Below, one piece after another: positions 12,284-38,600 of a stretch of 64,000 nucleotides of DNA. The number at the start of each line of letters is the position of its first letter. The stretch's first letter is position 1. Position numbers and translations under genes: made by a program. The notes beneath the pieces are model-generated. The model saw only the letters and a list, made by a program, of their open reading frames with translations. It had not been told where the DNA came from and did no database searches. This stretch comes from Branchiostoma lanceolatum (taxonomy: Eukaryota; Chordata; Leptocardii; Amphioxiformes; Branchiostomatidae), in NCBI RefSeq assembly GCF_035083965.1, contig NC_089723.1:806001-870000 (forward strand). The letters run 5' to 3'.

Positions 12284-12496
12284 CTAGGCCTTGGTGCCCT
12301 CGCTGACGGCGTGCTTGGCCAGCTCGCCCGGCAGCAGGAGTCGCACGCCGGTCTGGATCTCGCGGTTGCTGAGGGTTCTCTTCTTGTTGTAGCGAACCAG
12401 CTTCTCCGCCTCGCCAGCGATGCGCTCGAAGGCGTCGTTGATGAAGGAGTTCATGATGCTCATTGCCTTGCTGGAGATGCCGGTGTCGGGGTGCAC
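12284..12496 (-). other. Histone H2B C-terminal domain exon
   Basis: Seventy residues beginning [18 protein letters not shown], with [40 protein letters not shown] and VSEGTKA before TAG. This is H2B from the end of alpha-1/alpha-2 to alpha-C. It lacks the N-terminal tail and alpha-1 and also the final VTKYTSSK-type residues. Upstream is a clear acceptor (pyrimidine-rich, ending TATAAG), and the preceding exon ends NRQ, echoing the KQ that precedes VHPDTG in normal H2B. Substitutions such as [14 protein letters not shown] for the usual SRLAHYNKR-type segment show divergence from a core histone. Confidence 0.85.
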
Positions 12497-15400
12497 CTTA
12501 TAGATGTAACAACAAAAAAAGTGGCAAAGATCAAAAGCTATTCTACAAAATTGCCACTATCTGAAAGCTATCGCTACTCTCTCTTATACTTACTTGCTAC
12601 TCTTCTGTTTGTCCTCTAAAGATACACATGGTGCTACAAAGTACCCACTCTTTTCATTGGTAATTTGCACTACAGAATTGCTCTGTGACTACATGTGTAT
12701 ACCTCTTTGACTTATTCTATATATTCTCTAACTGTTCTCTGGCTTATTCTTGAATGAAATTAAGAGTAGAATCAAGCACACCTGGCGATTAAGCAGTCCC
12801 TCGAGCTCCATGTCAGGGGCGTACTGTGGAATCAGTCAGAAAAAGTTACCATTTACACAAACAATATTTAATGTGAAGATGTTGGCGGTAGCTAGATTAT
12901 GTCAATTGAAAATTATACATTAACATTATTCATACCCCTTGCCAATATGATGTTTTGGTGTATTCTTAAGACTGAAATGTACTGTGTGATTTGGACAATC
13001 TTTAAATCCAAACCCACAAATGCTAAACATTTCCTTGGCTGATGGTCTAGCTGAGGAACATTTTTCTCTACTTAATTTCATGCATCAAACAGACTTATCG
13101 AAACATTCATAACAACACAATTTCGTGTATTAAACAAAATTTGTATAAATGATTTACGTCGGGGGTCTAAACTACGTCAGGGCCTCAAAATGCAGTGCAG
13201 CGTTACCTTTTAAATTACTAATCATTTAAAGAGAGAGTCACACTTACATCAGAACCATAAGTTTTCGGCAGGGCTGCCATGTCAAGCATCCACTGTGTAT
13301 AGAAAGTCAGAAAATTTCAGAATAACAATAACAAAATCCGCTCCAGACAAATATTAAACTAGTACCAGCATTCTACAAAACTGCCATGATATTACATGAT
13401 ATCCAGCAGTCTGTAGTGTGTGCTCCATAGAATGAACTGGGATGTGACACCGCACAAAACAGTGAAGCGTTACTGATTTAATAAAGAGTCACACTTACAC
13501 CATCACCAAGTTGTTCTGCCACCATCATGCCGAGGATCGCCATCATCGCCGCGCGACCCTGCAAAATATTCAAACCACAAATGTTCAACATTTCTATGAA
13601 TAATTATCTTGCTGGGGAACACCCACTCATGTTTGTGTATCAAACGATTTTTTAAAGGCTTTAACAAAAGAATCACACTTACATTGTTTAGTTCCACATT
13701 CAGACCAGAAGCATCTCTGCTGTCCAGAACCTCGCCGAAGTCCCATGTTTTGGTGAAACGGTCGATTTCCTATAGAAACAATCAGAAAACGTTGATGAAA
13801 CAGCAACAAACGTCCACTCGTAACACCACACAAGACAGTTGAACATTTCCATGCATTTTTGTCTTGCTGGGAACACCCACTGAAGTTTGTATATCAAACA
13901 ATTTTTTCGTGATCTAACAAAACAATCACACCTACATTGTTCAGTTCCGTCAGTTGAGCTTTTTCCTTGTCTCAAAATTGAAAGAATCCATCGGATATAC
14001 TCTACCATTGCTTATACAAGCCCTACAATAAGCTGAAACCAGAAATGGTCCATTGTCTTGCCTATGTCTGTATTTGATTTGATTTGATTTGTATCAAACG
14101 AACAAACCTTTACTAATAGTTCAACAAATGAGTCGCATTTACGCCTGATTTCAATTCATTGACCGCTCTGAGGTTGTCGTCGAAAGTCTATAGAAATAGT
14201 CATTATTTCAAATTGTTTAGAATATAATCACTCAAGACAAATATGAAAGTACTGTAAATGCAGAAATGTTTGCGGTGGTTTTATGTTCGTGGTTTTCGCG
14301 TGACCGTTTTACCGCAATCTTAAAACAACCTGAAAACCACTAGATACTGATGCATTATGTGACTATAGCATTGCCGTGAACTTAAAACCACAGCGAACAC
14401 TCCATTTCCCTCCTAGCGCGAAATATAAACCACGCGAAGTTAAGTGCATTTACAGTACACCACAAAGATGAAAGTGTCTCCCAGAAGCCGTGATATTACA
14501 TGATAAAGCGTTACAACATGCTGATGCATAGATTAACCTGGAGTGTAACAACACACAGAATATGATGATATAAAACTAATATTCACAAACGTAACGCACA
14601 GAACAGGGATTAGTGCTGGGACAAGAGATTTGACAGACCGCTCAACGAATGTCGTGGAAAAAGAACGAATCGTTCGAACATTCTTCGTACTTTTTTGTAG
14701 TTTAGATCATACTTAGAACTACGTCGTGTATCATATTCCAATTATCAAATCAAGTGTTACACAAATCTTCCAACGTTTGGTTGCAGCGAGAGCGCAGCGA
14801 GATCGCATCGAGAGCGCAGGGAGAGCGCATCGAGAGCGCAGGGAGAGCGCAGCGAGAGCGCAGGGAGAGCGCAGCGAGAGCGCAGGGCGATCGCCGTCTA
14901 GTGAAATGTGGGCTTTAAAGAATCTTCAAACAGCACATGTTCAATATTTCCCTAAGATTATTGTCTTGCTGAGAGATATCAATCCACACTCAAGTTCAAC
15001 AAACAATTAGAAAACGGGCAAACAGACTGACAATGTAAAGAACAACAGCAACAACAGAAGTCCACCAAGACACAAAGATGAAACTATTCCACGTAACTGC
15101 CATGATATAACATGATAACTCTGACGTCTGTGTTCCAATAGAACAAACTGGGGGGTAACAACAGATGAAATAGTCCAACGTTACCTTGCCTAATGATCTA
15201 AAATATCATCTAATGAAAGAGTTAAGCTTACCGCTTCTTTTTGCACGAGGAGGCCGAGACACGCCAACATAGCGATGCGGGCCTGCAAAATGTTCAAACC
15301 ACAAATGTTGAACATTGCCATAAATAATTTTCCACTCAATTTGTGTATCAAACAAACAAATGGACATTTACAAAGGACTTAACAAAAGAGTCACATACAC

Positions 15401-16799
15401 TAACATGCTTTAATTCCGCCTCCCTCAGACGCAGATCATAAGTGCTGGCCATGTTTTTGAAGTCATCGAAGGCCTATAGAAACAGTCAAAAATTTTAAGA
15501 AGAACAACAACAAAGATCCACTCTAGGACTGCCATGATATTACATGAAACACATCAGTATTCAGTGCGGGTTCCTACAGAATAAACAGGAATGTAACATT
15601 GTTTCATGTTCTTCTTGGTATTTTGAATAAAACTTCATATTCAAATTATCGAATAAAGTGTTATACAAATCCTCCCTAATTTTGGTGGCAGCGAGATCGC
15701 AGCGAGATCGCAGCGAGATCGCAGCGAGATCGCAGCGAGATCGCAGCGAGAACGCAGGGCGATCGCCATCAATCCACACTCAAGTTCAACAAACAATAAG
15801 ATAACAAGCAAACAGAGTGACAATGTAAAGAACAACAGCAACAACAGAAGTCCACCAAGAGACAAAGATTGAAGTATTCCACAAAACTGCCATGATATAA
15901 CATGATAACTCTGACGTCTGTGTTCCAATAACAGACTGGAGTGTAAAACAGATGAAATAGTCTACCGTTACCTTGCCTAATGATCTAAAATATCATCTAA
16001 TGAAAGAGTTAAGCTTACCGCTTTTTCTTCCACGAGGAAGCCGAGCACCGCTAACATAGCAAAGCGGCCCTGCAAAATGTTCAAACCACAAATGTTGAAC
16101 ATTGTCATAAATAATTCTCCACTCAATTTGTGTATCAAACAAACAAATGGACATTTACAAAGGACTTAACAAAAGAGTCACATACACTTACATGTTTTAA
16201 TTCCGCCTCCCTCAGACGCAGATCATAAGTGCTGGCCATGTTTTTGAAGTCATCGAAGGCCTATAGAAACAGTCAAAAATTTTAAGAAGAACAACAACAA
16301 AGATCCACTCAAGGACTGCCATGATATTACATGAAACACATCAGTATTTAGTGAGTGTTCCTACAGAATAAACAGGAATGTAACACCACACAAAATAGTC
16401 TAACGTTACCTTTACTAATGATCTAATGAAATAGTCACACTTACCTCATCAGACTTTAGCCCCGCGATGTCCTTCTCCAATTGCTCGCCCTGCAAAATGT
16501 TCAAACCACAAAAGTTCAACATGCCATGAATTATTGACATGCTGAGGAAGTTCACTCCATTTCGGAAAACACAGAGCAGTCTAACGTTACCTACTAATGA
16601 TTTAATGAAATAGTCACACTTACCTCAAACCGTTCTTTAACACGGGCCGCGATCTCCTTCTCTGCATGTTCTCGCATGCCCTGAAAAATGTTCAAACCAC
16701 AAAAGTTCAACATTTCCATCAATGATTGCCTTACTGAGGGAACTTCTTCTTCAGTCAATTTTATGTATCGAACAAAGAAACATACATACATACATACAA

Positions 16800-16832
<33 letters not shown>

Positions 16833-16933
16833 AATACACACAAACATACATACATACATACAAATATTCCTAAATACATACATATATACATATATACACA
16901 TATACATACATTTACATACACGTACATACATAA

Positions 16934-16964
<31 letters not shown>

Positions 16965-18128
16965 AACAAAAATAGTTTGAAGTCTAAACTAAAAGAGACA
17001 CACTTACAGATGGCGGCCCCTGCTTTTGTTCCTGCAAAATGGTCAAAACCACAAATTTTCAACACTTCCATGAACGATATTACAGTATCACTGTACGGGC
17101 AATTTCATGTTCTAAACAATCCATTAATCAATCAATCAATCAAACACACAATCATCAATCAACAAATCAATCAATCGATCAAACAAGAATGAAAGTTTTT
17201 TTTAAATCTAAATACAATCAAACATCCATTAAATTTCAAAATAGTTTTATACACTACTTTAAATGTATTAAGCTGATTGGAACACCAAGCAATGGAAACC
17301 TACCGATGCCAGCTTGTCAAGAAGGACCTTAGCTTCCCCTAAAATAACAACAGGATTACATATCAACGTACACCCACTAACAAAGCGGCAAGGATCACAA
17401 CACAAATACACATTTTTTTTCATATCTAAAAACTGAAAATAAGCATACTGAACGTTTCTGATTTCCCTCTTAAAACGTCTTGAACTCTTGATAGAAAAAT
17501 TGCGTGCTTCGAGTCAAACTGTTTCGGCATCATGAAATTGTGTGAGATTCCAACATGTTCCCACCGTTGAATAAAGCCATGTCTTACTAATTGCTCACAC
17601 CTTAGCTACCTAACCTCAAATTTAAATCTAAATTGAAACTTAACACATTATCAATCGTCATCATAAAAGTACCATGAACTAACGACAGGGAAAATGTCAA
17701 ATTGTTAAGGACAAAAATGCCTATATTTTATATCTAACCGTGCACTAAACAACTGCAAAAGAAGTGACCTATTCAAATAAGCCACCAAGATACATGCTAA
17801 TTTCTCCACATTTTCCCACGATAACAGAACGACATTCCTCCTCTTAAAATCACAGAAAAAATCGAGCCTCTCGCCCTCCACTGCATTAAACAGAGAAAAA
17901 AACTAACAAACTTAGATTTGGAACATTAGCAAATAAAATGTGTAGAAACATCTCCCACACTGTCATCATTTCGCAATGATATGACTCAGATTCATTTTGT
18001 TCTTTGCAAAAAGCCTTCAGGCAAGAATTTGTTTATATCAAAGAAGAATCTTAAATCAACAGCTCACCTTCAGCGACGAAAGCCGCGAGCAGCACGACAG
18101 AAAGCGCAATGATGTGACGGATCGCCAT
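12284..18128 (-). CDS. Signal-peptide protein with light-harvesting-like motifs and an H2B C-terminal exon
   Basis: Minus-strand exons: 18128-18068, 17338-17304, 17031-17008, 16680-16624, 16489-16445, 16260-16192, 16069-16019, 15473-15405, 15282-15232, 14187-14143, 13965-13936 (weak), 13769-13683, 13558-13499, 13292-13248, 12823-12782, 12496-12284. Apart from the first junction all introns are phase 0; the model gives about 327 residues. Residues 1-20 are a signal peptide ([20 protein letters not shown]). Exon pairs then encode AFDDFKNM...LREAELKH followed by [17 protein letters not shown], a second copy with [17 protein letters not shown], and a third, VELNN plus [20 protein letters not shown]. 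These match the ExxxGRxAMxAxLG signature of chlorophyll a/b and fucoxanthin-chlorophyll binding proteins, where the Glu-Arg pair ligates pigment. The last exon encodes the C-terminal part of histone H2B. Function is unknown; pigment binding is unproven. Confidence 0.72.
14251..14462. mobile_element. MITE with GTACTGTAAATGC terminal inverted repeats
   Basis: It begins AGTACTGTAAATGCAGAAA and ends in the inverse, GTGCATTTACAGTAC, with further inverted matches inside (GCGGTGGTTTTA against ACCACGCG). About 210 bp with no ORF. It lies in an intron of the light-harvesting-like gene. Confidence 0.8.
14785..14892. repeat. Minisatellite of 11-bp units
   Basis: About nine units of the GCAGCGAGATC / GCAGGGAGAGC type, in an intron. 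The same repeat, with the same flanks, occurs at 15688-15765 in the adjacent duplicated block. Confidence 0.85.
15688..15765. repeat. Minisatellite of 11-bp units (second copy)
   Basis: Seven nearly perfect GCAGCGAGATC units. The left flank (AAAGTGTTATACAAATC) and right flank (CAATCCACACTCAAGTTC) are shared with the array at 14785, showing that both belong to one duplicated block. Confidence 0.9.
16779..16957. repeat. (CATA)n/(CA)n microsatellite
   Basis: CATACATA-type repeat grading into ATAC and CA runs, in the intron between exons 3 and 4 of the light-harvesting-like gene. Confidence 0.95.
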
Positions 18129-18243
18129 GATGACTCAAAGTTGTCTCCGAACCTGTAAGAAGACGATACATCAGAACCTGGTATAATTGTAAAGATTTCT
18201 ACTTTACAGCCTCTGGTGGTGTTACGTTGTTTTTCAGTCAAAA

Positions 18244-19500
18244 CAGACCCCGATAAATCGACTCTGTCTCCGTTCAGACCCCGTGTACTCGGCCCTATCC
18301 CTACACAAACCCCGTTTACTCGGCCCTATCCCCACACAGACCCCGTTTACTCGGCCCTGTCTCCGGTCAGACCCCGTTTACTCGGCCCTGTCCCCGCCCA
18401 GACCCCGTTTACTCGGCCCTGTCCCCGTTCAGACCCCGTTTACCCGGCCCTGTCCCCACACAGACCCCCTTTAGTCGGCCCTGTCTCCGATCAGACCCCG
18501 TTTACATGGCCCTGTCCCTACACAGACCGCGTTTACAGGGCCCTGTTCCCGTTCAGACCCCATGTACTCGGCCCTATCCCCACACAAACCCCGTTTACTC
18601 GGCCCTATCCCCACACAAACCCCGTTTAGTCGGCCCTGTCCCCGCCCAGACCCCGTTTACACGGCCCTGTCCCCGCCCAGACCCCGTTTACTCGGCCCTG
18701 TCTCCGTTCAGACCCCGTTTACTCGGCTCTGTCTCCGGTCAGACCCCGTTTACTCGGCCCTATCCCCACACAAACCCCGTTTAGTCGGCCCTGTCCCCGC
18801 CCAGACCCCGTTTACTCGGCCCTGTCCCCGCCCAGACCCGGTTTACTCGGCCCTGTCTCCGCCCAGACCCCGTTTACTCGGCCCTGTCCCCGCCCAGACC
18901 CCGTTTAGTCGGCCCTGTCCCCGCCCAGACCCCGTTTAGTCGGCCCTGTCCCCGCCCAGACCCCGTTTACTCGGCCCTGTCCCCGCCCAGACCCCGTTTA
19001 CTCGGCCCTGTCCCCGCCCAGACCCCGTTTACTCGGACCTGTCTCCGCCCAGACCCCGTTTACTCGGCCCTGTCCCCGCCCAGACCCCGTTTACTCGGCC
19101 CTGTCCCCGCCCAGACCCGGTTTACTCGGCCCTGTCTCCGTTCAGACCCCGTTTACTCGGCTCTGTCTTCGGTCAGACCCCGTTTACTCGGCCCTATCCC
19201 CACACAAACCCCGTTTAGTCGGCCCTGTCCCCGCCCAGACCCCGTTTACTCGGCCCTGTCCCCGCCCAGACCCCGTTTACTCGGCCCTGTCCCCGCCCAG
19301 ACCCCGTTTACTCGGCCCTGTCCCCGCCCAGACCCCGTTTACTCGGCCCTGTCCCCGCCCAGACCCCGTTTAGTCGGCCCTGTCCCCGCCCAGACCCCGT
19401 TTACTCGGCCCTGTCCCCGTTCAGACCCCGTGCACTCGGCCCTGTCCCTACACAGACCCCGTTTACTCGGCCCTGTCCCCGTTCAGACCCGGTTACTCGA
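18244..19500. repeat. 31-bp GC-rich minisatellite, about 40 copies
   Basis: Unit CCCCGTTTACTCGGCCCTG followed by TCCCCGCCCAGA, period 31 bp, with variants (CACACAAA, GTTCAGA, TTTAGTCGG). It starts about 115 bp upstream of the ATG at 18128, so it occupies the promoter or 5' UTR of the light-harvesting-like gene. Because 31 is not a multiple of 3, the proline-rich frames across it are by-products. Confidence 0.97.
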
Positions 19501-22330
19501 CGATGTCCCCCATCACCCCGGCCCCTACCCCGATCAGAACCCGAATAAAACACAGCTGCTAAGAAGAATCGGTACTCACCACTGTAGATAGATGTCCGAT
19601 GAATTTTGGTCTCGACTGGTCTCGACTGGTCTCGACTTCTCTCCGGTCTCGAACTGATACAGGAGCGGACTGCGCAGCTCCGTTTGCTGATGTGGCACAT
19701 TCCATTCTTACATACAGAATAGGGGCGTGAAATGTTTTCAATTTTTTTATACATGCGACAATAAGTGTTCATACTTCATATTTTTCTATTAGTAAAGATA
19801 TTGCATTACCAAGCTATTCTCACTAATTTGCGATAATGCGTGCTTAAATATTTCAGGGCATGGTTCATGACAATTTTGGAGTCATCCCTCAGCAACAAAT
19901 GGTTGCTCCCTGTCATGACTCACATTTTACAAAACGTGCGAGCTACAGGTTGAAGGAGTAGATATGAAAACACAGTTTGACTTCAATCCCCGTGAGAAAT
20001 TTATTCCAAAATTATCCCTACCGGTGATGATGCAAGAGGATCCTTATAATTACGAAACTGGTAAGATTCTGACCGCTAGGTTATTGACACATGGAAAGCC
20101 AAAATCTAAACGTAATTACAGATCACTATTGTCCAATATAGAACCCATCTAATAAACCATGTAAAAACTATATCTTATAAGGATATATGTCTATGGATCA
20201 ACTGGGGCTGTATATGTTTATCAGGACTTCATTCACGTCGTCTGTGTCTAACATATGTATTATGTGTTTTTTTAACCATACCTCTTCCCTGATGACCTCA
20301 ATAAAAAGCGGACTACGGGCTGATTTTTTTCATATGATAAAATGTAGATAAATAGAGGCTGACATAAATAAGATTGATGACTTTTAACTGCTAATAAACG
20401 CAATGTCGCAAAAGCCAGATCACTCAGTAAATGTGGTGGACAAAGTTTGAATACTGTAATCCACTTCAATCTTCTCGGTAGCAAAATTTCACGGTGTAAG
20501 GAAAATGGACACTAAACTTTAACTTCACGGTGGTCGCAAGTGATTTACAGAACTAGAACGGATGTGGAATGGAGTCTTAACAATGACAACAGGTAGTTTT
20601 CATGGTGATGATAAGTTCACGGTACAGAGGTGACTGTGAAAGCAGTGGACATAAAGTTACAGTGAAAGAAACAAGAATTACAGTATGCAAAATTGATTAT
20701 GGACGATTGTTGACTTCTATCTGGTATTGCTGCATGCATGACTGTTGTTATGCAGAAAAAAATCTACATGTATTTTTTTAATTCTAAATTTCTAAATGAA
20801 CATTTTTTTGAATGAACGTTTAATTTTTTTTGAATGAACAATTTTTTGATGAACGAATTTCTTTAATGAACAAACACAATGTCACAGAAACTAGACCAGT
20901 GGTCACCGAAAATGGCGGGCGAAATTGAAATATTCTACCCCGCGAATCTTAACGTTCCATTTTGTTAAATTCTTTCTGGTATTTCTACATGACTGTTGAC
21001 AATGCAGGAACATTCCTTGTGGGTTGTTTTTTCAGACGTGGTAACGAGAGGGGAGGGGTGGTGTCACGTGATCCATACGTCGTGTGTTTTTCGTTGGCTT
21101 TTGGTTATGTTAGAATGGATGTGAGAACGTTTCGAGCTATTATCTGGACACGTATTAAAGATATTTCAGTTATTTCGGAGGTGTTATCATGTCCTTTTGG
21201 CATAAGTGGTGTTGGTAACGGATGCTCTCGGTCGGTACTGTAGTCTAAGGTGGGAGGGGGGCAGCACAGAGAAGCCATATCCTCTACGTGCTAGCCCTGA
21301 CTGCCCAAAGTAGATGTAAGGGTTCGGGTTGGTCCCGGTGTTGTACGCGTGTTTAATGTTGCTGTTGTTGTTGTTTTGCAACATTTTGTACGTCTTACTG
21401 CAACTTTTTTGTCTAATTCGGAGGGCGAAATCCTGGTGACAATTCCATCTTCTGTCTTTAGCTTTCGAGTTAGAATGGCAGCGTTGACCTTCCACATGTT
21501 GTACCCAAACAAACTTGTGAAACCTGAGAAATCCAGATTGGTAGTAGGGAAAAGGCTTGAAGTTCGAAATGTAGCTACAAGTGTTTTAGGTGATTGTTTT
21601 TCATTGCTTAATGTTGCAATGGAAAATTAATGTCGTGGTTCCTCCCCTGTTCAAGCATGCCACGCGCGGACAACTGCCCTGTTTTTGTTTCACTGTTTAT
21701 GTTGTCGGTTACCCAAGGCTCGTTGGGAACACCCTTTGACAGCGATGGGGTACTTCAGTTGTGTTTTAGGTGTAAAGATTACCTCACATTTTCCCATACA
21801 CAGCCCCCCAACTGGCGCCAGTATTGTACAGAATGTTCTCGATCCGTCTTCTAATTATTGCAGAAATGGTGATGACGAAAGATGTTTTCTTACAAAACTG
21901 CTACTGACACGCACAAATTACATACAGATTCTGACCGCTAGGTTATCGACATAGAATGCCAAAGTTCTAAACATAATTACAAATCAGTGTTTTCAAATAT
22001 ACGAACCAATATTTATCGTTTTTTTTTGCAACTACAATGTACATGCCCGAAGGCTATTCGCAAATACATGTATTAATGAATCAAGATAATACACTAACTA
22101 AAGATACTAATATACTAAAGATGATAAACTATTACAAAGTAAGCTACGTCTGTTGGGTTTGACTTCTTCGTTGGAGGCAGTGGAAGACGAAATGACCCGC
22201 CTGTTCCATAGCATGTGCGTTATTTGATTGTTTATAGTAGAATTGCCCTCTTTGTTACGATGGGAAAGCAAGAATATATGAAAACAGAAAATGCACCGAA
22301 TAGGACTTGCATTTGCTTCCTGATATTATA
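19501..22330. other. Intergenic with dispersed repeats, no convincing gene
   Basis: It contains two related segments: about 20065-20150 and 21925-22010, which share TCTGACCGCTAGGTTAT and flanks. The segment 21705-21870 (GACAGCGATGGGGTACTTCAG, then CCAACTGGCGCCAG) is related to 26465-26600. No open frame shows a recognisable domain. Confidence 0.5.
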
Positions 22331-28884: not shown

Positions 28885-31800
28885 TCAGTCGTGATGAGTG
28901 CCGGCGGGGCAGAAGCACCAGGCGTTCCACAACTTGCGGGTGGTGCACAGGTGAAATCCAGTCTTATCCAGACAGTCCGGCCTTTAACAAAGCACAACAC
29001 ACATGTAAGCAGACTGGACACGTGTGCGCAGGCAATGAAAGGTCTTATCTGCCCTGCAGTTGAATAGTGTGTGTTTCCATGTATATACACCTCCAACCTA
29101 ATCAATGATATACTGGGGTGCATATTTATCCCTGGAAGTATGCCCATCACACTAAAGTGTAAAATCACACTATAGTGTTACAAAAAATAGAAAACAGTCA
29201 TCCTCAATTAAGGGGAACCATGGTGCTTTTCCAAGTAGCTAGTGGCTTGTCCTGCGTTTCTAGCCAAGCACACCGAGTCACTAGGCTCTACCATCCTCGG
29301 CGGGTCGCTGGGAAAATAGTAGAAATTGGCCAAAATAGAGTCAATTGTATGAAGGGAGTCGGCTATACGGAGATAGGGTCCAATATTGCGGCTGCGAATG
29401 ATACCCTCCATGGCCAAAGTCCCCCGGCAAATGTTCTCCCTTATGATAGCCGGCGCGGTTAGTCTGGTAGAGACTACCGAGTCACCCCTACTCTTCTCGA
29501 GAAGTGTGTTGGGTTCTTTTGCGTTAAGACGTTTGACGCTACAGTCAAACCAGTATTTCATTCTTGCATTTTGTCTGTATGAAAACCTTACTCGCGCACG
29601 TACCTGACGGTGTGCATGACTAAGCCCGGTCTCCCGTCCGACATCCATCCGCACTTGCAGACCCAGTACCCGTCCGGTTCATCCTCATACAGCTGGGCAA
29701 GGGACGCCAGGACGGCTCCCTTCTCTGCGCACGCCTGTCCAGCTTCATCAAAATCATACGAATACTTGCCGTCTGGTGATTCCATGTGGAAAACATGCCC
29801 TGGAAAGGGTAAGGAGAGTCGAAATGATAGACACCAGGTTCTTTGATGAAGGATAGACATCCAGAAAATACGCAAGAAAACAGTAACCCAATGCATTGAC
29901 AAGCTACTGGATGGATTTTGGAAACGGATTTTGACCTTGCCAAAACTTACCCAGTTGTTTGAGTTTTCTTGCGTGAATACCGGGTGGTTACGCCTGAAAT
30001 CTACTGTTTTCACGTAAGAAGTGCAAACTCGAAATAGGGGAAGGTGGCTTCACAAAGGGGTTCTAGTACTGATCAAAGATTGCAGAATATGGCTTGTGTC
30101 AAAACCCTCAAACACAGCCACATAAGTACTCACATATTGTGCTTGTGTTAACGCTAGTGCTCTTCCGTTGACCTTTCTACGAACCTGCTTTGTTGCACAA
30201 GTCAGCATTCAGGTTCATCTGTGGTTGTATCGTCGCTTCCAAGTGGTCGGTTTGCTTCTTGTCCTGGGGCGTCTCAAAAGCTGGCTGGCCGGACAGTTCA
30301 TCACGGTTGTCAAGACGTTCCTCAAGGGCCGATACTCGGCCCTCCAGCTGGCTGACTTCTGCTGAGCGGGTCTTGAGATGTTCCTTTATGCTTTTCGCTA
30401 GGCGTTCAATGCGGCTGAACCGCTCTTTTTGCCTCTCGTGGCGCTGGTTCTGACTTGATAGTTGTTCTTTTATGGTAGTCGCCAGGTGTTCTATGCGGCT
30501 GAACAGCGCTTTTTGCTTCTCGTGGCGTTGGTTGTGGCTTGATAGTAGGCCCTCCAGACGGCTGACTTGTGCTGAGTGGTTCTGGAACCGTTCCTCAAGG
30601 GTCGATACTTTGTGTTCCAGGCTGCTGACCAGTGCTTTTTGTTGTTCGTGTCGTTGGTTGTGGCTTGATAGTTGGCCCTCCAGGTGGCTGACCCTTGCTG
30701 AGCAGGTCTTGCTGTGCTCTTCAAGGGTGGACACTTGGCCCTCCAGACGGCTGACTTCTGCTGAGCGGGTCTTGAGATGTTCTTTTATGGTAGTCGCCAG
30801 GTGTTCCATGCGGCTGAACAGCGCTTTTTGCTTCTCGTGCCGTTCGTAGTGGGTTGTTAGTTGGCCCTCCAGACTGCTGATTCGTGCTGAACTGGTCTTG
30901 TTGTGCTCTTCAAGGGACGATACTTGGACCTCTAGACGGTTGACCAAATCGAAGCGGGTCTTGAGGTGTTTCTCAAATCCCGATACTTTGTGTTGCATGC
31001 GGCCGAACAGGACTTTTCGTTGCTCATGGCGGTGGATGTGGCTTGATAGTTGGCCCTCCAGACGGCCGACCTGTGCTGAGCAGGTCTTGCTGTGCGCTTC
31101 AAGGGTTGATATTTGGTCCTCCAGACGGCTGACCAGTGCTTCGCGGTTATCAAGGCGTTCCTCAAGGGTTGATAGCTCGTTCTTCAAATGGCTGCCAACC
31201 GCTGCACTGTTTTCGAGACGTTCCTCAAGGGTCGATATTTGGTCCTCTAGACGGCTGACCAGTGCTTCGCGGTTATCAAGGCGTTTCTCAAGGGTTGATA
31301 GCTCGTTCTTCAAATGGCTGTCCAGCGCTGAACTGTTGTCTCGACGTTCCTCAAGGTTCGATAATTGATCCTCCAGACGATTGACGCTGGTTGAGCAGGT
31401 CTTGCTGTGCTCTTCATGGGTCAATAATTGGTTCTTCAAACGTCTGTCCAGTGCTGAATTGTTATCGAGACGTTCCTCAAGGGTCGATACTCGGTCCTCC
31501 AGAAGGTGGCCTAGTTCTGAAGGGTAGAAAAAACACCCCTCTCCGGTTGATACCTCGTTCTTGAAATGATCGGCCAGTGCAGAGCTGTTCTCAGTGAGGT
31601 TAGGATGGTCTGCCAGGTCGTTGTCCAGTGCTGAGCAGTTGTCAAGTTGCTTCTCGAGGGCGGATACTTTGCTTTCTTGTCGATTGATGAATGCTGATCG
31701 GTTCTCGACGTGTACCTTAAGAGAGGTGACTACGTTGTCCAGACGGCTGAAGACAGCTTCGCGGTCTTGGAGACGTTTCCCAATGAGCAACACTTGGTTC

Positions 31801-33326
31801 TGAAGACGGCCGACCATTGCTGATCGGCTGACAAGCTGTGGCGAAAGTAGGCAAAAACATAAGTATCTGACAAAAAATCGTCCGTCTTAAAGTGCTCATA
31901 CTTAGACAACTTGCTGATGAATGTGTACGCATGTGACAAGTCATCTTTTGTCATTTATAGTTACAATTCACCCAAGAGCAAAGGCAAGTACTCTCAAAGC
32001 AGAGTTTCGGCTTTTTCTTTAAGTCTTTTTAGGTGTTTTTGACGGGCTTTCTATTTTGTTCTGTTTTTTTTATGACGGCCAGAATAAAGAAAACGGGATC
32101 TTAATGCCGGCCAGACAAAGAGCCAAAGAAAGTAAGAAGCAAAAAGAAACTGACCGCATCAAAGTCCGGTTGTGGGGTGGTGATTTGTACCAGGATCAGT
32201 GCAAGAGATGTCATCAATGTTACTATGACGATGGTCGTCTTGGCAACGTTGACCAGCCAAGACAGGCGAGAGGATGACAAAAAATTACGTACTCGACTGC
32301 GCCAGCCATCTTGCTCCTCTGGTTCGTCTGAAACATACAGTGATAGTTATAAAGACATGTTTCATTTCCAGTGTTTCAAACACTTTCATCATTAAATCAT
32401 ACACAATATCTTTTATTACAAATTACATCTTTTGAATGTTCATATAGCTACAAGATATCACAGTCCAATCATTCTTCATCACGTGTCCTAGCATTGGGAA
32501 TTACGACGTGATGTCACGGCGGATATACAAAGCAAAAAAAACTCAGATGCTTATTTGAATGATTGTCTGGTTGCCTGTAAAGTTGTGTTTCATCAAATGG
32601 TCTCGCCTAATCTCCAGAGATGTTGGGTAAAACCACGAATGGCGGCTTTTACCGAGACTCTCGGCAGTAAGAACATCTAATTTGAGTTGAAGTCGGACCA
32701 TCCTGAGTACGATTTACGCAGTACCGGTACTGACCTGAGGACTCGGCCGAGCCTCCAGTGGTGTCGACGTTCACCCCTTGTCCCTCGCTTCTGTTCTGTT
32801 GGCCGTTTGGTCCGTTGTCTCGGTCTGCTGTAATTCAGAATTCTATACTGTCAATCTTTTTTTGCGAAATCGTTTTAAAGTTCTCTTCCAATCAGCAAGC
32901 ACTTACTCAAGCAACTGGACATGATTTGAAACTGTCAGACATTTCGGGTAGTATCCAAACGTACCTTTCCTCAATGCCACTTACTGACGAAAAGTAGTGG
33001 ATATTGGGTGCAACCTGAAACGTCTGACCGTTCCCAAAATCTGTCCAGTTCCTTGTGTAACTGTTATTTCAAATCATTCAAAATTCTTATCTTCTTTACC
33101 TTTCCTGACCAACCCCTAAATATGACATTTCACCATGAATGCACTGACCTGTAGATTCCCTGGAGTTGTAGAAGGGGTTGGCGTGCAGCTGGTTGATGAC
33201 GTCTTCCACCTGTCGACCTCCGATGGTCGCCTTTGGCCTGGTGTCCTGCGGTCCGCTGAGTCCGGGGGCGTTGGTTCGGTCTGCCCGAAGGTTCCGGACG
33301 GGAAGGTCAGGAGCCCGCCGCGCCAT
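28885..33326 (-). CDS. Type II membrane protein, coiled-coil stalk and C-terminal Link domain (copy A)
   Basis: Minus-strand exons 33326-33149, 32827-32735, 32327-32155, 31835-30185, 29799-29604 and 28981-28885 (TGA) join in phase for 795 residues. The start is MARRAPDLPV in a GCTGCCATGG context. Residues 1-110 are a polar cytoplasmic part. One membrane helix (VIVTLMTSLALILVQ) lies near residue 130, with basic residues before it and no signal peptide, so type II topology is inferred. Exon 4 alone encodes about 550 residues of heptad-like repeats (VSRLEGQVSTLEEH, KTCSARVSHLEGQL and similar), a long coiled-coil stalk. The C-terminus is a Link (hyaluronan-binding) module: GHVFHMESPDGKYSY, EAGQACAEKGAVLA, CKCGWMSDGRPG, DCLDKTGFHLC, WNAWCFC. 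Ligand is probably a glycosaminoglycan. The donor after exon 4 is GTTCGT, and several others are GTCAGT. Confidence 0.85.
29280..29480. mobile_element. Short dispersed element (MITE-like), copy 2, inverted
   Basis: Reverse-orientation copy of the element at 26215-26435, running from CTCTACCATCCTCGGCGGGT to GGTTAGTCTGGTAGAGAC. It lies inside the last intron of the copy A Link-domain gene. Confidence 0.75.
32910..33060. mobile_element. Foldback element in intron 1 of the copy A Link gene
   Basis: Arms AGCAACTGGACATGATTTGA and GTCAGACATTTCGGGTAGTA are inverse to CAACCTGAAACGTCTGACCG and AAAATCTGTCCAGTTCC. A matching element lies at the same place in copy B (38925-39080). Confidence 0.75.
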
Positions 33327-33439
33327 GGCAGCAGGACGTACCGAATGATCGAGTACAGGCAGTGCACGCAATGCCAACTTGCAGCTCTAAAAACAACCGC
33401 AAATTGTCTGCGACGTTATTTTGGAAGAGATTGATCTAC

Positions 33440-35640
33440 AATGTACGCATTACGTCCAAGAGAGGATTGTTGAGATAATCCTTAAACGTTTGTTTGTACT
33501 CACTGCCTTCTTCAGATGTTGCACATCAAACAGCTTGTGGAAATCCCTTCCATTCCCCGGTAGATATTGATAAACATGGAGTTGGGAAAGCCACGAATGT
33601 TGCAGACCAATCTGGTGTGAAGTTGGGGAGAACTTGGCGTCTTTAGTTGCCGGTTACGTAAATACTGACTGATATGAATACATACGTACAGGTGGACAAT
33701 TCTCAACAATTCAACAACAGTTTAGTCGTAAATTTACCGTGAATTTCTCTATCCGCCACCAGGAACATTTACACGTCATGAGTACCTCCATGACCAAAAC
33801 CAATCGGTGATACCAGGCCAGGGTGCGATCTACAACCGTTAAGAGAAGTCGGTTCTGTTCCCTGTTGGGTCAATAACGAAGTAAAGAAGTAAAGAAGGAC
33901 ACACAGATGATTTCTCCACATGTATTCACAACAAGACGATCTAGATACAGAAATCACTTGATTGCGTACAAAGAGTCTTTTCATTCAGTGACTTAAACAA
34001 CACGACAGCAGTACATTTGTCGTGTGCCCAGCTTTCTTCTGCTGAGAACAACATATATAATAGGGCAGCCAGATTAATATTCTTACGGAAATGTCCGACG
34101 GTAAGCGGTTGGTAAAAAAAATACATAGTTATATTTTGTTGTATATGTACATGGTACTAGTGGTATGGTTAGCTTAAGTATATTCGAAGCTTTCTTCGAA
34201 ATAAATAAATATTTTCTTATCATTTTACCATAACACAACCCAAATGGACACATAGTAAACTTTGTATTTCAAAAAGAAAGAGCATGTATACGTCGACATC
34301 TTCTATACATTATACATGCACGTTGCTCTAGATTCAGATAAGCTGGACACACCAACCTGCCGAACGAAACGCCACAAAAACTCCGCCATCCCCTACATGA
34401 CTGAACTTTTAAACAAACATGATTGATCACCTTCCACAGCAACATCTCTTACTACTAGTAATATCTAAAGGGTCACTTAGACATTTATCCGTTTAGACGA
34501 CTATATATATAAAGAGAGAGATATATGTTCTGCAAGTAGTGAAGCTAACTCTAGCCCTGTGTTCAATCCCAATTTTTTATGGTTGAGAAGTCTTTGATAC
34601 TCGCTTAGAAACAATGTGTAAATACCAGTATCCCATGTTTTTAGAAATGTAAATACCATTTTAATTCGGACTCTACCATTTAGAGTCCGCGACCGTGGTA
34701 TCTCTAATGAAGATTTCAAAGATTACAGCTTGTTAAAAGGTTCCATGGCCATAAACAGCTACACTCTTGTGAACGGTGAAGCTGTTTCTGTAATCCACAG
34801 GGTAAATTCCGTTCTCCAACTGCTTCTGATCGCTAAGGTCCACAGTCAGGTAACAGTGAGGACGTGCACATTTGTTTACATTGTACATTGCCATCAGGAG
34901 AATAACACAGCACACAGGAGAATACTGCTCCTTTATATTTGTTCAAGCTGTCTTGAAATTGCTGATTTCAGAAACCTCGTTACTACTGAAGCAGCCAATC
35001 ACAATATTGTTCGTAAGGAACATACAGTCCAAATTCCTTGAAAACAGGGAGTTTGTTTCCCTTACAAAAAGGGGACTAATTCAAACATCTGTGGTGCTTA
35101 CTTCAGGAAGTCTACAAGTTTGAATAAACTGTAAACCACACATACACAGACACATGCGCATCTCCATACAAGGTGGCACTACAAAACTAAGTAAAACCCA
35201 ACATGACAACTGCAACATCATGACAAGAGCTAAGTATGTAGCAACTACTTGAAACACGTGGCCGTAACCAGCTTCGCTTCCCTACATATGCATGATAGAT
35301 ATTTTAAACCCTACTTGACAGCTGCAACACTGTGGTAGGCGCTAAGTATGTAGCAAATAGCTGTAACGACTTGCTGTCTTAATTGGTCTCACTCACCCTC
35401 CGCTGGCATTACAAAACTCTGATGAATAAGTAAAACCCTACATGACAAACTGCAACATCATGACAACGCCTACGTACATGTATGTAACAACTACTTGAAA
35501 CACGTGGCCGTAACCAGTCGGTCTAGATCCTGCTCACCTACATATGTATGATCAATAAGATAAACCCTACATGGTATCTGCAACATTGTGGCAAGTGCTA
35601 AGTATATAGCAATTACTTGAACCACGAAGCCGTAACCACT
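33440..35640. other. Region between the two Link-domain genes
   Basis: It holds the third copy of the 27.6-kb repeat (34020-34240), the coding-like segment at 34733-34880, and short tandem duplications (for example CGTGGCCGTAACCAG at about 35260 and 35502, with CCCTACATG phrases). No complete gene was seen. Confidence 0.5.
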
Positions 35641-35681
35641 TCAAGTGCTGGTGATCCTGCTCCCCCACCCTCCGCACCGGA

Positions 35682-38600
35682 TCAGCCGTAACGAGTGAAG
35701 GTTGGGCAGTAGCACCATGCGTTCCACAACTTGCGGGTGGTGCACTGGAAGATTCCTGTCCTATTCATGCAACACAAAACACATGTAAGCACAGTGGACG
35801 AGTGTGCGCGGGCTGTCCTGTAAAAGTTTCTGTAAGAGTGCATCTATGGCCCGGTTTACGCACGCAGTTTTGAGTCGGCTCGGTGGCTCCAAGTCGACTC
35901 TAAGTGACTACGAAAACGCGTGTGTAAACACATCCTATGTAGACTGTCACATGTACGTACACCTCCCACCCGTGATGATGGAGCGCATCTCTAACTCTGG
36001 AATGACGCCCATCACACTTTCAAAAAAAGGTCAAACATTCCACCCCGTTGTGCTGTGTCCAAGTGGACTACGGTCAAATTAATGCAAAATTAATGCAAAT
36101 TTGCTTGTAGATATTTTGTTTGAATTAAAGACTTCGCTGCCTTGCTTGCACACTTACGTGGCGGTGTACGAGACGAAGCCAGCTCTCCCGGTCGACAACC
36201 ATCCACACCTGCACACCAAATCCGTGTCCGGTTGACGTAGATCCTGGAGCATCTGGGTAACGGTCGCCAGGACGGCTCCCTTCTCTGAGCATGCCTGGCG
36301 AGCTTCACGAAAGTTATATTTGTAATTTCCGTCTGGTGACGCCAGGTTGAAAACGTGTCCTGCAAAAGTTAAAGGCAATGAAAAATGACCTTATGTTTTC
36401 ATGCTACTTTTAGTAAAAAAAGGGCAACACATAAGAAGAGCGAACCCCAACTGGAGGAAACGTGGTTTTACAAAGGGAGTGCTGCTCAAAGATTGCAGAA
36501 TGTTAGTCGTATCAAAACGTACAGATATTGCCAATGTAGTTTACCAACACAATTGCCATATTGTGCTTGTGTTAGTGCTCTTACAATGACCTTTCTACGA
36601 ACCTGGCATGTTGCACTGGTCAGCCTTCAGGTTCGTCTGTGGTGGTATCGCCGGGTGCACGTTGTGGGTTTGCTCCTTGTCCTGGCGTGTCTCGAGGGCT
36701 GACTGGATGTACAGGTCTTCGCGATTGTCGAGACGTTCCTCAAGGGCCGATACTTGTCCCTCCAGACGGCTGACATCTGCTGAGCGGGTCTTGAGATGTT
36801 CCTCGAGGGCCGATACTTGGCCTTCCAGACGGATGACTTCTGCTGCACGTGTCTTGAGGTCTTTCTTCATGATAGTCACTAGGTCCACGTGGCAGAACAG
36901 CGCCTTCTGCCGCTCGTGGCGTTGGCTCTGGCTTGATAGTTGGTCCTCCAGACTGCTGACCCTAGCTGAGCAGGTCTTGCTTTGCTCCTCAAGGGTGGAT
37001 ACTTGGTCCTCCAGTGCTAATCGGTTTTCGAGACGTTTCTCCAGGGTCGATACTTGGTTCTTCAGACGGGTGACCAGTGCTGAGCACGTCACGAGCTGTT
37101 TTATGCGGATGTTACAGCTCCCTTGCTCCTGGGCCAGACGTCCCTCAAAAGCCGACACTTGGCCCTCCAGACGGCTGACGAGTGCTGCGCGGCTCTCGAG
37201 CCGTTCCTCAAGGGCTGATAGCTCGTTCTTTAAACAGCTGTCCAGCGCTGCGCGGTTCTCCAGACGTTTCTCAAGGGTCTCCACCAGTGCTGAACGGTTC
37301 TGATCGACCTCTCCATGGACCGATAACTTCTTCGTCAGAGACCCGATCACTTCTCTTTGTTTCTCAAAGTGTTCCTCAAGGGTCGATACTCGGTTCTCAA
37401 GAGGGTTGGCGATTGCAAGGGCTGACTGTTTCTCAACGCGTTCTTCAAGTGTCGATACTCGGTTATCAAGAGGGCTGACAATGGCTGAGCGGTTTTCAAG
37501 GCGTTCTTCAAGGATCGATACTCGGCCCTCCAGAAGGTGGCCTAGTTCTGAACGGTAGAAAAAACACCCCTCTCCGGTTGATACTTCGTTCTTGAAATGG
37601 CCGGCCAGTGAAGAGCTGTTCTCGGTGAGGTTATACTGGTCAACATGATGGTTGTCCAGAGCCCAGCAGTTGTCAAGTCGTTTCTCGAGGGTGGATACTT
37701 TGCTTTCTTGACGATTGATGAATGCTGATCGGTTCTCGGTGTGTTCTTTAAGTGAGGAGACTGTGTCCTCCAGACGGCTGGAGATAGCTTCACGGTCTTG
37801 GAGACGTTTCCCGAGGAGCAGCACCTGGTTCTGAAGACGGCCGACCATAGCTGATCGGCTGACAAACTGTGGCGAAAGTAAGCAAAAACATAAGCTTCTA
37901 GCAAAAAGACATCTGTTCTAAAGTCCTTATTGGTTGATGAATAGATTTTCTAGTCTTTGATACATAGAAACTCTGCTGATGAACGTGCGTACGACAAGGT
38001 TTTGTGAATTATAGTTAAAATTCATACAAGAAAAAGGGAGAAGCAAGGAGAAACTGACCGCGTCATAATCCGGTTGTGGGGTGGTGATTTGCACCAGGAT
38101 GAGTGCAAGAGATGTCATCAATGTTACTATGACGACGGTCGTCTTGACAACGCTGACCAGCCTGGAAAATGACAGAAAATCACGTACTCGACCACGCCAG
38201 CCATTCTCTTTCTCTGGTTCGTCTGCAACATAGAAAGATCGTTATAAAGATTTACATCCTGACTATTTTCACAGCGATTCTCACAGTAACATCAACAATA
38301 GGAACTTCAAATTGTGTTAACTGAAGGGACACCTTGAAGACTCATAGAAATAAATAAACAATATCGGTTATTTCAAATAACCCTCCCAAGAATAATCCCT
38401 ACCTTTATAACTGTTGAGTATATATGTTAACAAAGTACTCTCTTATATTGCCGTCACAGCATTTGAAAACGACATCGGGGTTCACGACGTGATGTTAGGG
38501 CAAATGTATCAAGCGGAAAGATCTCAGACGCTGGTAGGAGAGATTTGGAATGCATTTTCAGTAAAGTTGTATTTATTATCTGGCGTCGCCCAATCACCAA

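Follow-up and report, generated by a model that had tools for sequence, protein, structure and literature searches.

Closest described systems

In light-harvesting (LHC) proteins, Glu, His/Asn and Arg of helices 1 and 3 are the chlorophyll-site residues. To our knowledge, LHC proteins are not known from any animal nuclear genome, and lancelets have no plastid, no chlorophyll of their own and no known habit of kleptoplasty. A search of the open-access literature, judged by titles and the beginnings of abstracts, returned no report of LHC genes in lancelets, and among the matches listed there was no title on horizontal transfer from algae to Branchiostoma or other cephalochordates. For Elysia sea slugs, a presence of algal nuclear photosynthesis genes, including those for light-harvesting polypeptides, has been claimed (available text of PMC3494510, PMC6380222 and PMC9642861); germ-line absence contradicts these claims in the available text of PMC9642861, while that of PMC6380222 still asserts much evidence for them. 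Within amphioxus, tandem duplications of exon-intron borders termed mirages have been described in the Adh3 and globin genes, with copies lying within introns, and intron gain from mirages was proposed (available text of PMC3087553).

The locus described here lies in the window, i.e., the whole stretch of 64,000 nucleotides of Branchiostoma lanceolatum DNA that was analysed. Its predicted gene is one open frame holding two CAC-type helix-1 units, an Lhcf-type helix-3 unit and a haptophyte-like histone H2B exon. It resembles the cryptophyte CAC/ACPI proteins (ACPI-2 of Chroomonas placoidea, light-harvesting Chl a protein 10 of Guillardia theta) in helix 1 and the approach to it, DLR(V)...[EQ]E, but differs from them in lacking helix 2 and a CAC-type helix 3, in having helix 1 twice and many introns, and in lying in an animal genome. 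With the Lhcf/FCP proteins (the P0018/P0021/P0026 group and fucoxanthin chlorophyll a/c proteins of the PDB) it shares helix 3, N[VI]ELNNGRAAMM[AG]ILGMMV[AH]EQLG (21/24), and pre-helix 3, the latter being found in an apparent dead copy within the gene as well; it departs from them in that its helix 1 is of CAC type and helix 2 is missing. The resemblance to protist-type H2B (from a Pavlovales haptophyte and unnamed marine sources) covers 64–65 of 70 residues over the stretch HPDTG...SEGTKA, although the lancelet piece lacks the N-terminal tail, the start of the fold and the last residues and forms the end of another protein with a signal-peptide-like start.

As in the amphioxus mirages, the repeated units comprise an intron end and an exon start, and copies lie inside introns; however, the published repeats copy the same part of an exon of a native gene, whereas here the exons behind the conserved ends differ (available text of PMC3087553). 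Unlike in the available accounts of Elysia, the lancelet pieces are set in a chordate locus rich in introns. The reading favoured here, to which a probability of about one half is given, is that the locus represents a lancelet nuclear gene put together from algal pieces gained by horizontal transfer, which would have been multiplied in a mirage-like manner and would be partly still constrained.

Gene model and genomic setting

On the minus strand, positions 18128–12284 form an open 15-exon model of 317 amino acids from ATG to TAG (Table 1), which is precisely the span that had been proposed for the gene from its letters. All 15 exons are open in a single frame, with introns 2 to 14 (13 introns) in phase 0 and intron 1 in phase 1. 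The GC content is 0.46–0.63 in each of the 15 exons against 0.36 in the introns as a whole, which amount to 4.9 kb of AT-rich sequence. Exon 1 exceeds in GC all 3527 of 3527 intron windows of its length, and the signal-peptide-like start anticipated for it is present (hydropathy of 2.25 over 19 residues), without the AFAP stretch of cryptophyte leaders. Exons 2, 3, 4, 5, 13 and 14 were called from splice flanks, frame and GC, and no database relative of them was found in the sets searched. For exon 10, the GC tail is 5% and the DNA similarity to exon 6 is non-significant (47%, z 1.4). Rfam and tRNA scans gave no result, nor did a promoter and terminator scan of 18100–18300, whose consensus is bacterial and not suited to this host.

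Table 1. Features of the predicted gene and of its surroundings (window positions).
Feature	Position	Strand	Description
Exon 1	18068..18128	-	start codon and signal-peptide-like segment (20 residues + G)
Exon 2	17304..17338	-	12 residues; GC tail 0.7% against same-length intron windows
Exon 3	17008..17031	-	EQKQGPPS; B-type position (preceded by alpha intron 3' end)
Exon 4	16624..16680	-	19 residues; B-type position; not LHC-like
Exon 5	16445..16489	-	15 residues; B-type position; sister of exon 4
Exon 6	16192..16260	-	A-type; LHC helix 1, first half, with the pre-helix before it; last residues AELKH
Exon 7	16019..16069	-	B-type; remaining half of LHC helix 1; 17 residues
Exon 8	15405..15473	-	A-type; exon 6 copy, 1/69 bases different
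Exon 9	15232..15282	-	B-type; 17 residues; diverged exon 7 copy, 11/51 bases different
Exon 10	14143..14187	-	15 residues; may be a short relative of exon 6; least certain of all the exons
Exon 11	13683..13769	-	A-type; LHC pre-helix 3; ends VELNN
Exon 12	13499..13558	-	B-type; LHC helix 3, Lhcf type; 20 residues
Exon 13	13248..13292	-	15 residues; relative not found
Exon 14	12782..12823	-	14 residues; relative not found
Exon 15	12284..12496	-	protist-type H2B C-terminal part, VHPDTG...SEGTKA, stop TAG
Helix pair, exons 6 and 7	16260-16192 + 16069-16019	-	
Helix pair, exons 8 and 9	15473-15405 + 15282-15232	-	
Helix pair, exons 11 and 12	13769-13683 + 13558-13499	-	
Tandem duplication	14978..16385	-	16385-15768 and 15598-14978, 94% identical; contain exons 6-7 and 8-9
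Apparent dead A-type exon, intron 10	13938..13995	-	Lhcf pre-helix 3 remnant ending ELNN; in-frame stop
Alpha-intron copy at dead A exon	13838..13948	-	82% to 13695-13583
Alpha-intron 3' end copy without usable B exon	14023..14050	-	profile score 17.6
Alpha-intron 3' end copy, degenerate acceptor	14915..14942	-	profile score 14.8
Alpha-intron 3' end remnant, intron 13	13006..13060	-	76% over 55 columns; below profile threshold
Palindromic MITE-like element, intron 9	14249..14458	.	arms 72% complementary

The sequence-only reading had pointed to animal neighbours, and these were recovered: the adjoining GH81 gene matches Branchiostoma belcheri and further neighbours are animal, with Xlink, kinase and TPR domains. 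These surroundings bear on the possibility of an artefact, in which algal DNA from gut or food would have been joined to lancelet contigs. Tandem repeats lie on both sides of the locus (10.7–11.3 kb and 18.2–19.5 kb), where assemblies can mis-join, the homologue searches (including the best 120 of 573) contained no LHC protein with a Branchiostoma label, and of the nine window segments compared by k-mer profile only one is less typical than the introns, whose mean correlation to the rest is 0.10 (others 0.09–0.29). The k-mer test has little power, however, since the segment 24–30k is equally weak (mean 0.09). Against an artefact there are also the separation of the algal pieces into short exons within 4.9 kb of AT-rich intron, the broken state of the LHC part, unlike an intact algal gene, the succession of two LHC types and H2B in one frame, and the exon-border duplications that the neighbouring lancelet GH81 gene has too. 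An artefact is considered improbable, and it is judged highly probable that the locus truly belongs to the lancelet genome.

Light-harvesting helices

The repeated LHC helix motifs that had been proposed were found three times, on the minus strand and inside the model. The 317-aa product matched the PF00504 profile (Chloroa_b-bind), which had been suggested as a check and whose failure to match would have told against the proposal, over three stretches with 90.8 bits (E 1.7e-25; curated cut-off of 22.3 bits), while exons 6–7 alone gave 39.4 bits and exons 11–14 alone 30.6 bits. In all three helix pairs a phase-0 GT-AG intron (122, 122 and 124 bp) interrupts the identical codon, after KH or NN as originally described, and each pair retains Glu, His/Asn and Arg at the chlorophyll sites (ELKHGR, ELKHAR, ELNNGR).

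Exons 6–7 agree with helix 1 of cryptophyte-type antennae in 27 of 29 columns. Identity to the 12 best matches was 86–93% over 28–29 columns, with one exception of 96% over 25; the unnamed sequences P0003/P0005 gave 93% over 29 columns (16 of 17 residues in exon 7) and Chroomonas ACPI-2 gave 89% over 28. Exons 11–12 share 21 of 24 amino acids with Lhcf-type helix 3 and at most 11 of 24 with the CAC type. None of the 128 LHC proteins fetched carried both the CAC-type and the Lhcf-type signatures. Among the best 120 of 573 homologues, the organism names, where given, were all of algae, most entries being nameless.

Transfer from an algal donor with subsequent intron gain and convergence had both been entertained for these motifs, and of the two the PF00504 score and the algal-type matches speak for transfer. 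An independent origin of ExxH/NxR helices in an animal protein could be argued on the grounds that the motif is short and that Ala/Leu/Met-rich helices can look alike, but the type-specific matches over 27/29 columns of helix 1 and 21/24 of helix 3, together with a protist-type H2B in frame, are against it. By their length and type-specificity the LHC matches rule convergence out, and next to no credence is left to it. From these resemblances the pieces are very probably of algal origin. A viral or bacterial source was also considered, but contig scans using two short patterns each, and so not exhaustive, yielded no relative: two LHC alignments run against viral contigs and one run against genome contigs gave 32, 65 and 37 pattern matches, of which tblastn confirmed none.

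Helix 2 was not found inside 12284–18128 when 14 chosen LHC proteins were compared with the window (tblastn, E up to 10), and a complete LHC fold is therefore impossible. This absence had gone unmentioned in the sequence-only reading, as had the H2B identity of exon 15, the 621-bp duplication of exons 6 to 9 and the exon-intron array with its apparent dead copies.

Histone H2B exon

The histone profile PF00125 gave 46.5 bits on the 317-aa model and 46.4 bits on exon 15 alone (cut-off of 26.4). Exon 15 agrees with unnamed marine H2Bs in 65 of 70 amino acids and with a Pavlovales haptophyte in 64, compared with 57–58 of 70 for human, bird, beetle and copepod H2B, and its GC3 is 0.93. The match of the exon alone begins at profile position 72 of 122, so that the N-terminal half (basic tail and first helix) is lacking, as are the last residues. 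Just upstream of the piece there is a loss of 12 bases relative to intact H2B, and the splice acceptor of exon 15 seems to be located in H2B-derived sequence. No further H2B match was present in the 64-kb window at E up to 1.

Duplicated units and origin of the introns

Copies spanning exon/intron borders comprise the exon 6–9 duplication, in which exons 6–7 and 8–9 are the two halves of a single 621-bp duplication, a duplication of exons 4 and 5, and extra alpha ends; exon-border duplications occur likewise in the neighbouring GH81 gene. The alpha 3' ends of six introns in the model score 29.6–42.6 with a profile of these ends, against 13.1 for the best elsewhere in the window outside the gene. 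The apparent dead helix-3 exon is a weak match when taken alone (E 0.63, tblastn), and a copy of the alpha intron follows it.

Alternatively, mobile introner-like elements could have invaded an algal-derived frame that had no introns, and the introns would then not be parts of tandem exon-intron units; this origin is considered unlikely. It concerns intron origin and is compatible with either a constrained gene or a dying one. Over 40 bp the six alpha 3' ends are 80–97% alike, yet the exons behind them (exons 4 and 5 versus 7 and 12) are not alignable, which speaks for introners, and these were reported to be common in aquatic taxa (available text of PMC9860276). On the other hand, all 13 introns from intron 2 onward are in phase 0, intron copies enclose an apparent dead exon, and a palindrome search gave no inverted repeat of at least 16 bases pairing the two ends of an intron; the available main text of PMC9860276 contains no mention of Branchiostoma, amphioxus, lancelet or cephalochordate.

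Evidence on possible constraint

Between the two halves of the 621-bp duplication, exons 7 and 9 differ at 11 of 51 bases versus 23 of 501 intron columns, with 3 gap columns counted among the 501 (Fisher p 8e-5), the pair having been picked for testing after it had been seen. The LHC profile score of exon 9 is 29.2, whereas simulated sequences with 11 substitutions placed at random averaged 4.4 and 109 of 20000 simulations reached 29.2; in the reverse simulation none of 20000 reached the score. Among the LHC segments used to build the profile the lower quartile is 31.7, and exon 9 scores below it. The excess of differences is found at both site classes (pS 0.20, pN 0.22), which agrees better with replacement by a diverged copy than with positive selection. 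Positive selection is not claimed, synonymous sites being raised as much as non-synonymous ones.

These results also bear on the strongest competing explanation, that algal pieces were integrated and multiplied into a dead or dying chimera which makes no functional protein and whose frames persist as the insertion is young. Such a chimera would agree with the missing helix 2, with the several units that appear dead, with the H2B piece truncated at both ends and the 12-base loss before it, and with the donor GTTAG after exon 8 in place of the GTAAG after exon 6. It accounts less well for 15 of 15 exons being open in one frame with a GC contrast, for the Glu, His/Asn and Arg kept in three of three helix pairs, and for exons 7 and 9, which diverged and yet both remained LHC-like. 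The LHC exons of the model are open while the apparent helix-3 exon copy nearby has a stop. A dying chimera is regarded as quite possible but as the lesser prospect, the balance tilting slightly towards a gene that is still protein-coding and constrained.

Proposed origin and significance

In the reading of an acquired and partly constrained gene, microalgal coding DNA, its sources probably being two or more LHC genes and an H2B gene, would have entered the germ line. Tandem duplications across exon/intron borders would then have multiplied the acquired pieces; some units may have died while three LHC units retained their frame and ligand residues. The putative product would be a short membrane protein of the secretory pathway with three LHC helices and a histone tail. 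Were it produced, the most likely action would be for its E-x-x-H/N-x-R helices to pair mutually and to hold or quench chlorophyll-type tetrapyrroles set free from food algae, although pigment binding is a guess and tetrapyrrole binding by the product is regarded as doubtful. Somewhat more doubtful still is the full proposal of a secreted or membrane pigment-binding protein of a chordate, built from two algal LHC families and a food-derived histone, multiplied in the manner of mirages and with its site residues under selection.

Pieces of algal LHC and histone that are split by introns and lie within a chordate genome would be hard to dismiss as contamination. If the favoured reading is true, coding DNA of eukaryotic food can reach the germ line of a chordate, and the locus would show how exon-border duplication converts acquired DNA into an intron-rich gene.

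Light-harvesting helices and their sources

The light-harvesting (chlorophyll-binding, LHC) helix motifs proposed by the sequence-only reading were matched in three stretches of the gene model by the Pfam profile Chloroa_b-bind (PF00504), with 90.8 bits against a cut-off of 22.3 (E 1.7e-25); exons 6-7 alone scored 39.4 bits and exons 11-14 alone 30.6 bits. A homologue search with the model gave 573 proteins with E <= 1 out of 2484 candidates. PF00504 was present in all of the best 120 of these 573, most of the 120 being nameless and the organism-bearing names being those of algae. A phmmer search of the PDB gave 618 sequences at E up to 0.1, with antenna-type names on the best 60, in which ACPI, ACPII and CAC chains were among the top single-domain matches (7Y8A chain 2 being Chroomonas ACPI-2 by its database name). 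No LHC protein labelled Branchiostoma was found among the best 120 of the 573 homologues (lengths roughly 136-432 aa) or in a composite search (roughly 301-957 aa, 7995 candidates sharing most words), which is to say only that no annotated one was found at the lengths searched. Viral and prokaryote contig scans for LHC relatives, run with two short patterns each, were empty. It was also observed that one JGI metagenome homologue (P0005) has ubiquitin fused to a cryptophyte-type LHC precursor.

By sequence signature, 128 fetched LHC proteins were classed as CAC-type (cryptophyte antenna family, 25), Lhcf-type (fucoxanthin chlorophyll family, 10) or other (93), with none being both. The 23-residue core of helix 1 (exons 6-7) had a best identity of 23/23 to the CAC type, 16 to the Lhcf type and 22 to the rest, while the 24-residue core of helix 3 (exons 11-12) reached 21 with the Lhcf type, 11 with the CAC type and 15 with the rest. 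These identities indicate that helices 1 and 3 have different LHC subfamilies as their source, or an unsampled donor. Helix 2 was not found in the gene by tblastn of 14 chosen LHC proteins against the window (E up to 10; 218 matches, 88 on LHC exons). Beyond the LHC exons, the only other sensible match within the gene was an Lhcf pre-helix 3 remnant with a stop inside (E 0.63, weak alone), with an alpha-intron copy after it.

Gene model

The 15-exon model is open from ATG to TAG over 954 bases (317 residues and stop), with GT-AG intron ends imposed as a condition when it was built. Because exons 3-15 each consist of whole codons, the 13 introns from intron 2 to 14 are in phase 0; intron 1 is in phase 1. 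GC content is 0.55 in exons against 0.36 in introns. Each exon was also compared with intron windows of its own length, after removal of two GC-rich satellite stretches: 14 of 15 exons ranked within the highest 2.3% and exon 10 within the highest 5%, a contrast which supports exons without any database match. In a composition comparison of little power, only one of nine window segments was less typical than the introns of this gene (mean correlation 0.10; others 0.09-0.29).

A candidate 3' splice site (cttcttacag, 18152), judged good by eye, lies approximately 24 bases ahead of the ATG, and beyond the TAG a donor and a strong acceptor close to 11974 (about 12272-11974) were likewise seen by eye. 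Together, these sites suggest 5' and 3' untranslated exons.

Exon-intron array

Introns 2-13 have ends that are common to varying degrees. The 3' ends of the six alpha introns, which precede exons 3, 4, 5, 7, 9 and 12, are 80-97% alike over 40 bp; introns of the second class, beta, precede exons 6, 8 and 11 and, less clearly, 10, 13 and 14. Exons 4 and 5, of B type, are mutually similar (65%, z 6.0) and show no similarity to exon 7 or 12 (z 1.5 or less). The intron ends preceding exons 4, 5, 7 and 12 are nevertheless 85-87% alike. Such conserved introns beside differing exons are the most puzzling trait of the locus.

Exons 6-7 and 8-9 form a 621-bp duplication that is 94% identical. Exons 6 and 8 differ at 1/69 bases, the introns at 23/501 columns (3 gap columns included) and exons 7 and 9 at 11/51 bases, an excess over the introns (Fisher p 8e-5). 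Exon 9 still scores as LHC, with 29.2 bits, under the lower quartile (31.7) of the profile's own 166 source segments; random 11-change versions of exon 7 average 4.4, with 109/20000 simulations reaching the exon 9 score and 0/20000 in the reverse case. Since pN (0.22) is close to pS (0.20), the difference suggests that one of the two was replaced by a diverged LHC copy, rather than that positive selection acted alone. The exon 8 donor (15404) is GTTAG and that of its duplicate, exon 6, is GTAAG, with weakened splicing of exon 8 possible.

One study (PMC3087553) describes minisatellite-like exon-intron border duplications, or 'mirages', in amphioxus globin and Adh3 and proposes intron gain through them. 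The same process can explain the repeated exon-intron units of the gene, which would have arisen by exon-border duplication.

Histone H2B exon

The Pfam Histone profile matched the model with 46.5 bits (cut-off 26.4), exon 15 being H2B from HPDTG through SEGTKA with a GC3 of 0.93. Among the best 120 of 7990 H2B matches, which were fetched for comparison, identity was highest with nameless marine sequences (65/70). A Pavlovales haptophyte reached 64, and four labelled animals (human, bird, beetle and copepod) reached 57-58, slightly below the 59 of the MMETSP0015 'Odont...' entry. Exon 15 retains stretches typical of protist H2Bs among the 120. As the bases immediately 5' of its splice acceptor, TACATCTATAAG, are similar to H2B Y-I-Y-K, the acceptor itself seems to be derived from H2B sequence; 12 bases are missing near it relative to an intact H2B. 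Unspliced, exon 14 runs into the intron and an early stop; splicing of exon 14 to exon 15 is predicted.

Neighbouring genes and repeats

Ten neighbouring ORFs were scanned, and TPR, tyrosine/serine-threonine kinase, Xlink and GH81 domains scored above cut-off. For the GH81 parts, two Branchiostoma belcheri proteins, Bbelb_386660 and Bbelb_386670, came out of the composite search, the gene being divided between them in that annotation; the other named animal matches were Owenia, Lingula, Magallana, Pecten and Plakobranchus. Translated matches of the two B. belcheri proteins to the window (E < 1e-8, first protein cut to 400 aa, repeats counted) were identical at 1125/1387 positions, which indicates that the window is lancelet sequence, distinct from that B. 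belcheri sequence.

Repeats lie on both sides of the gene (10.7-11.3 kb and 18.2-19.5 kb). The 70-bp unit of the array at 51755-54754 carries an apparent GH81 exon start (GCAG, then GTTATTCTGGACGCC...), and its array looks like a very large 'mirage' array of exon borders. Transmembrane-like segments were noted close to the Xlink/coiled-coil ORFs, which look like two related genes.

Features of the window and their positions
Feature	Position	Remark
LHC/H2B gene model	18128-12284	minus strand
Lhcf pre-helix 3 remnant	~13995-13938	
Extra alpha ends	about 14915-14942, 14023-14050, 13006-13060	without live exons
31-bp minisatellite, 40.9 copies	18244-19510	adjoins the gene's start codon, upstream
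Xlink/coiled-coil ORFs	29594-38241	contain an Xlink domain; 63/126/189-bp repeats make up two long coiled coils
GH81 endo-beta-1,3-glucanase gene	40638-58808	
121-bp unit tandem array	48709-49135	overlaps GH81 exons
70-bp unit x 42.9, 96% match	51755-54754	overlaps GH81 exons
152-bp unit tandem array	55417-55822	overlaps GH81 exons
61-bp unit x 4.9	57345-57644	overlaps GH81 exons

Origin and possible product

Phytoplankton is the food that lancelets filter, and the combination of cryptophyte-type, Lhcf-type and haptophyte-like matches fits dietary algal DNA as the source of these pieces. The protein, if made, would probably enter the secretory pathway and probably hold three short hydrophobic LHC helices retaining Glu, His/Asn and Arg. 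The 19-residue hydropathy peaks of these helices are 1.08-1.15, compared with 1.56 for helix 1 of Chroomonas ACPI-2. The main rival reading, that the gene is a dying chimera, is a serious possibility, if well short of probable. Our best guess at a function, with a probability of about 0.2, is that the predicted protein may bind chlorophyll products derived from the food of the animal.
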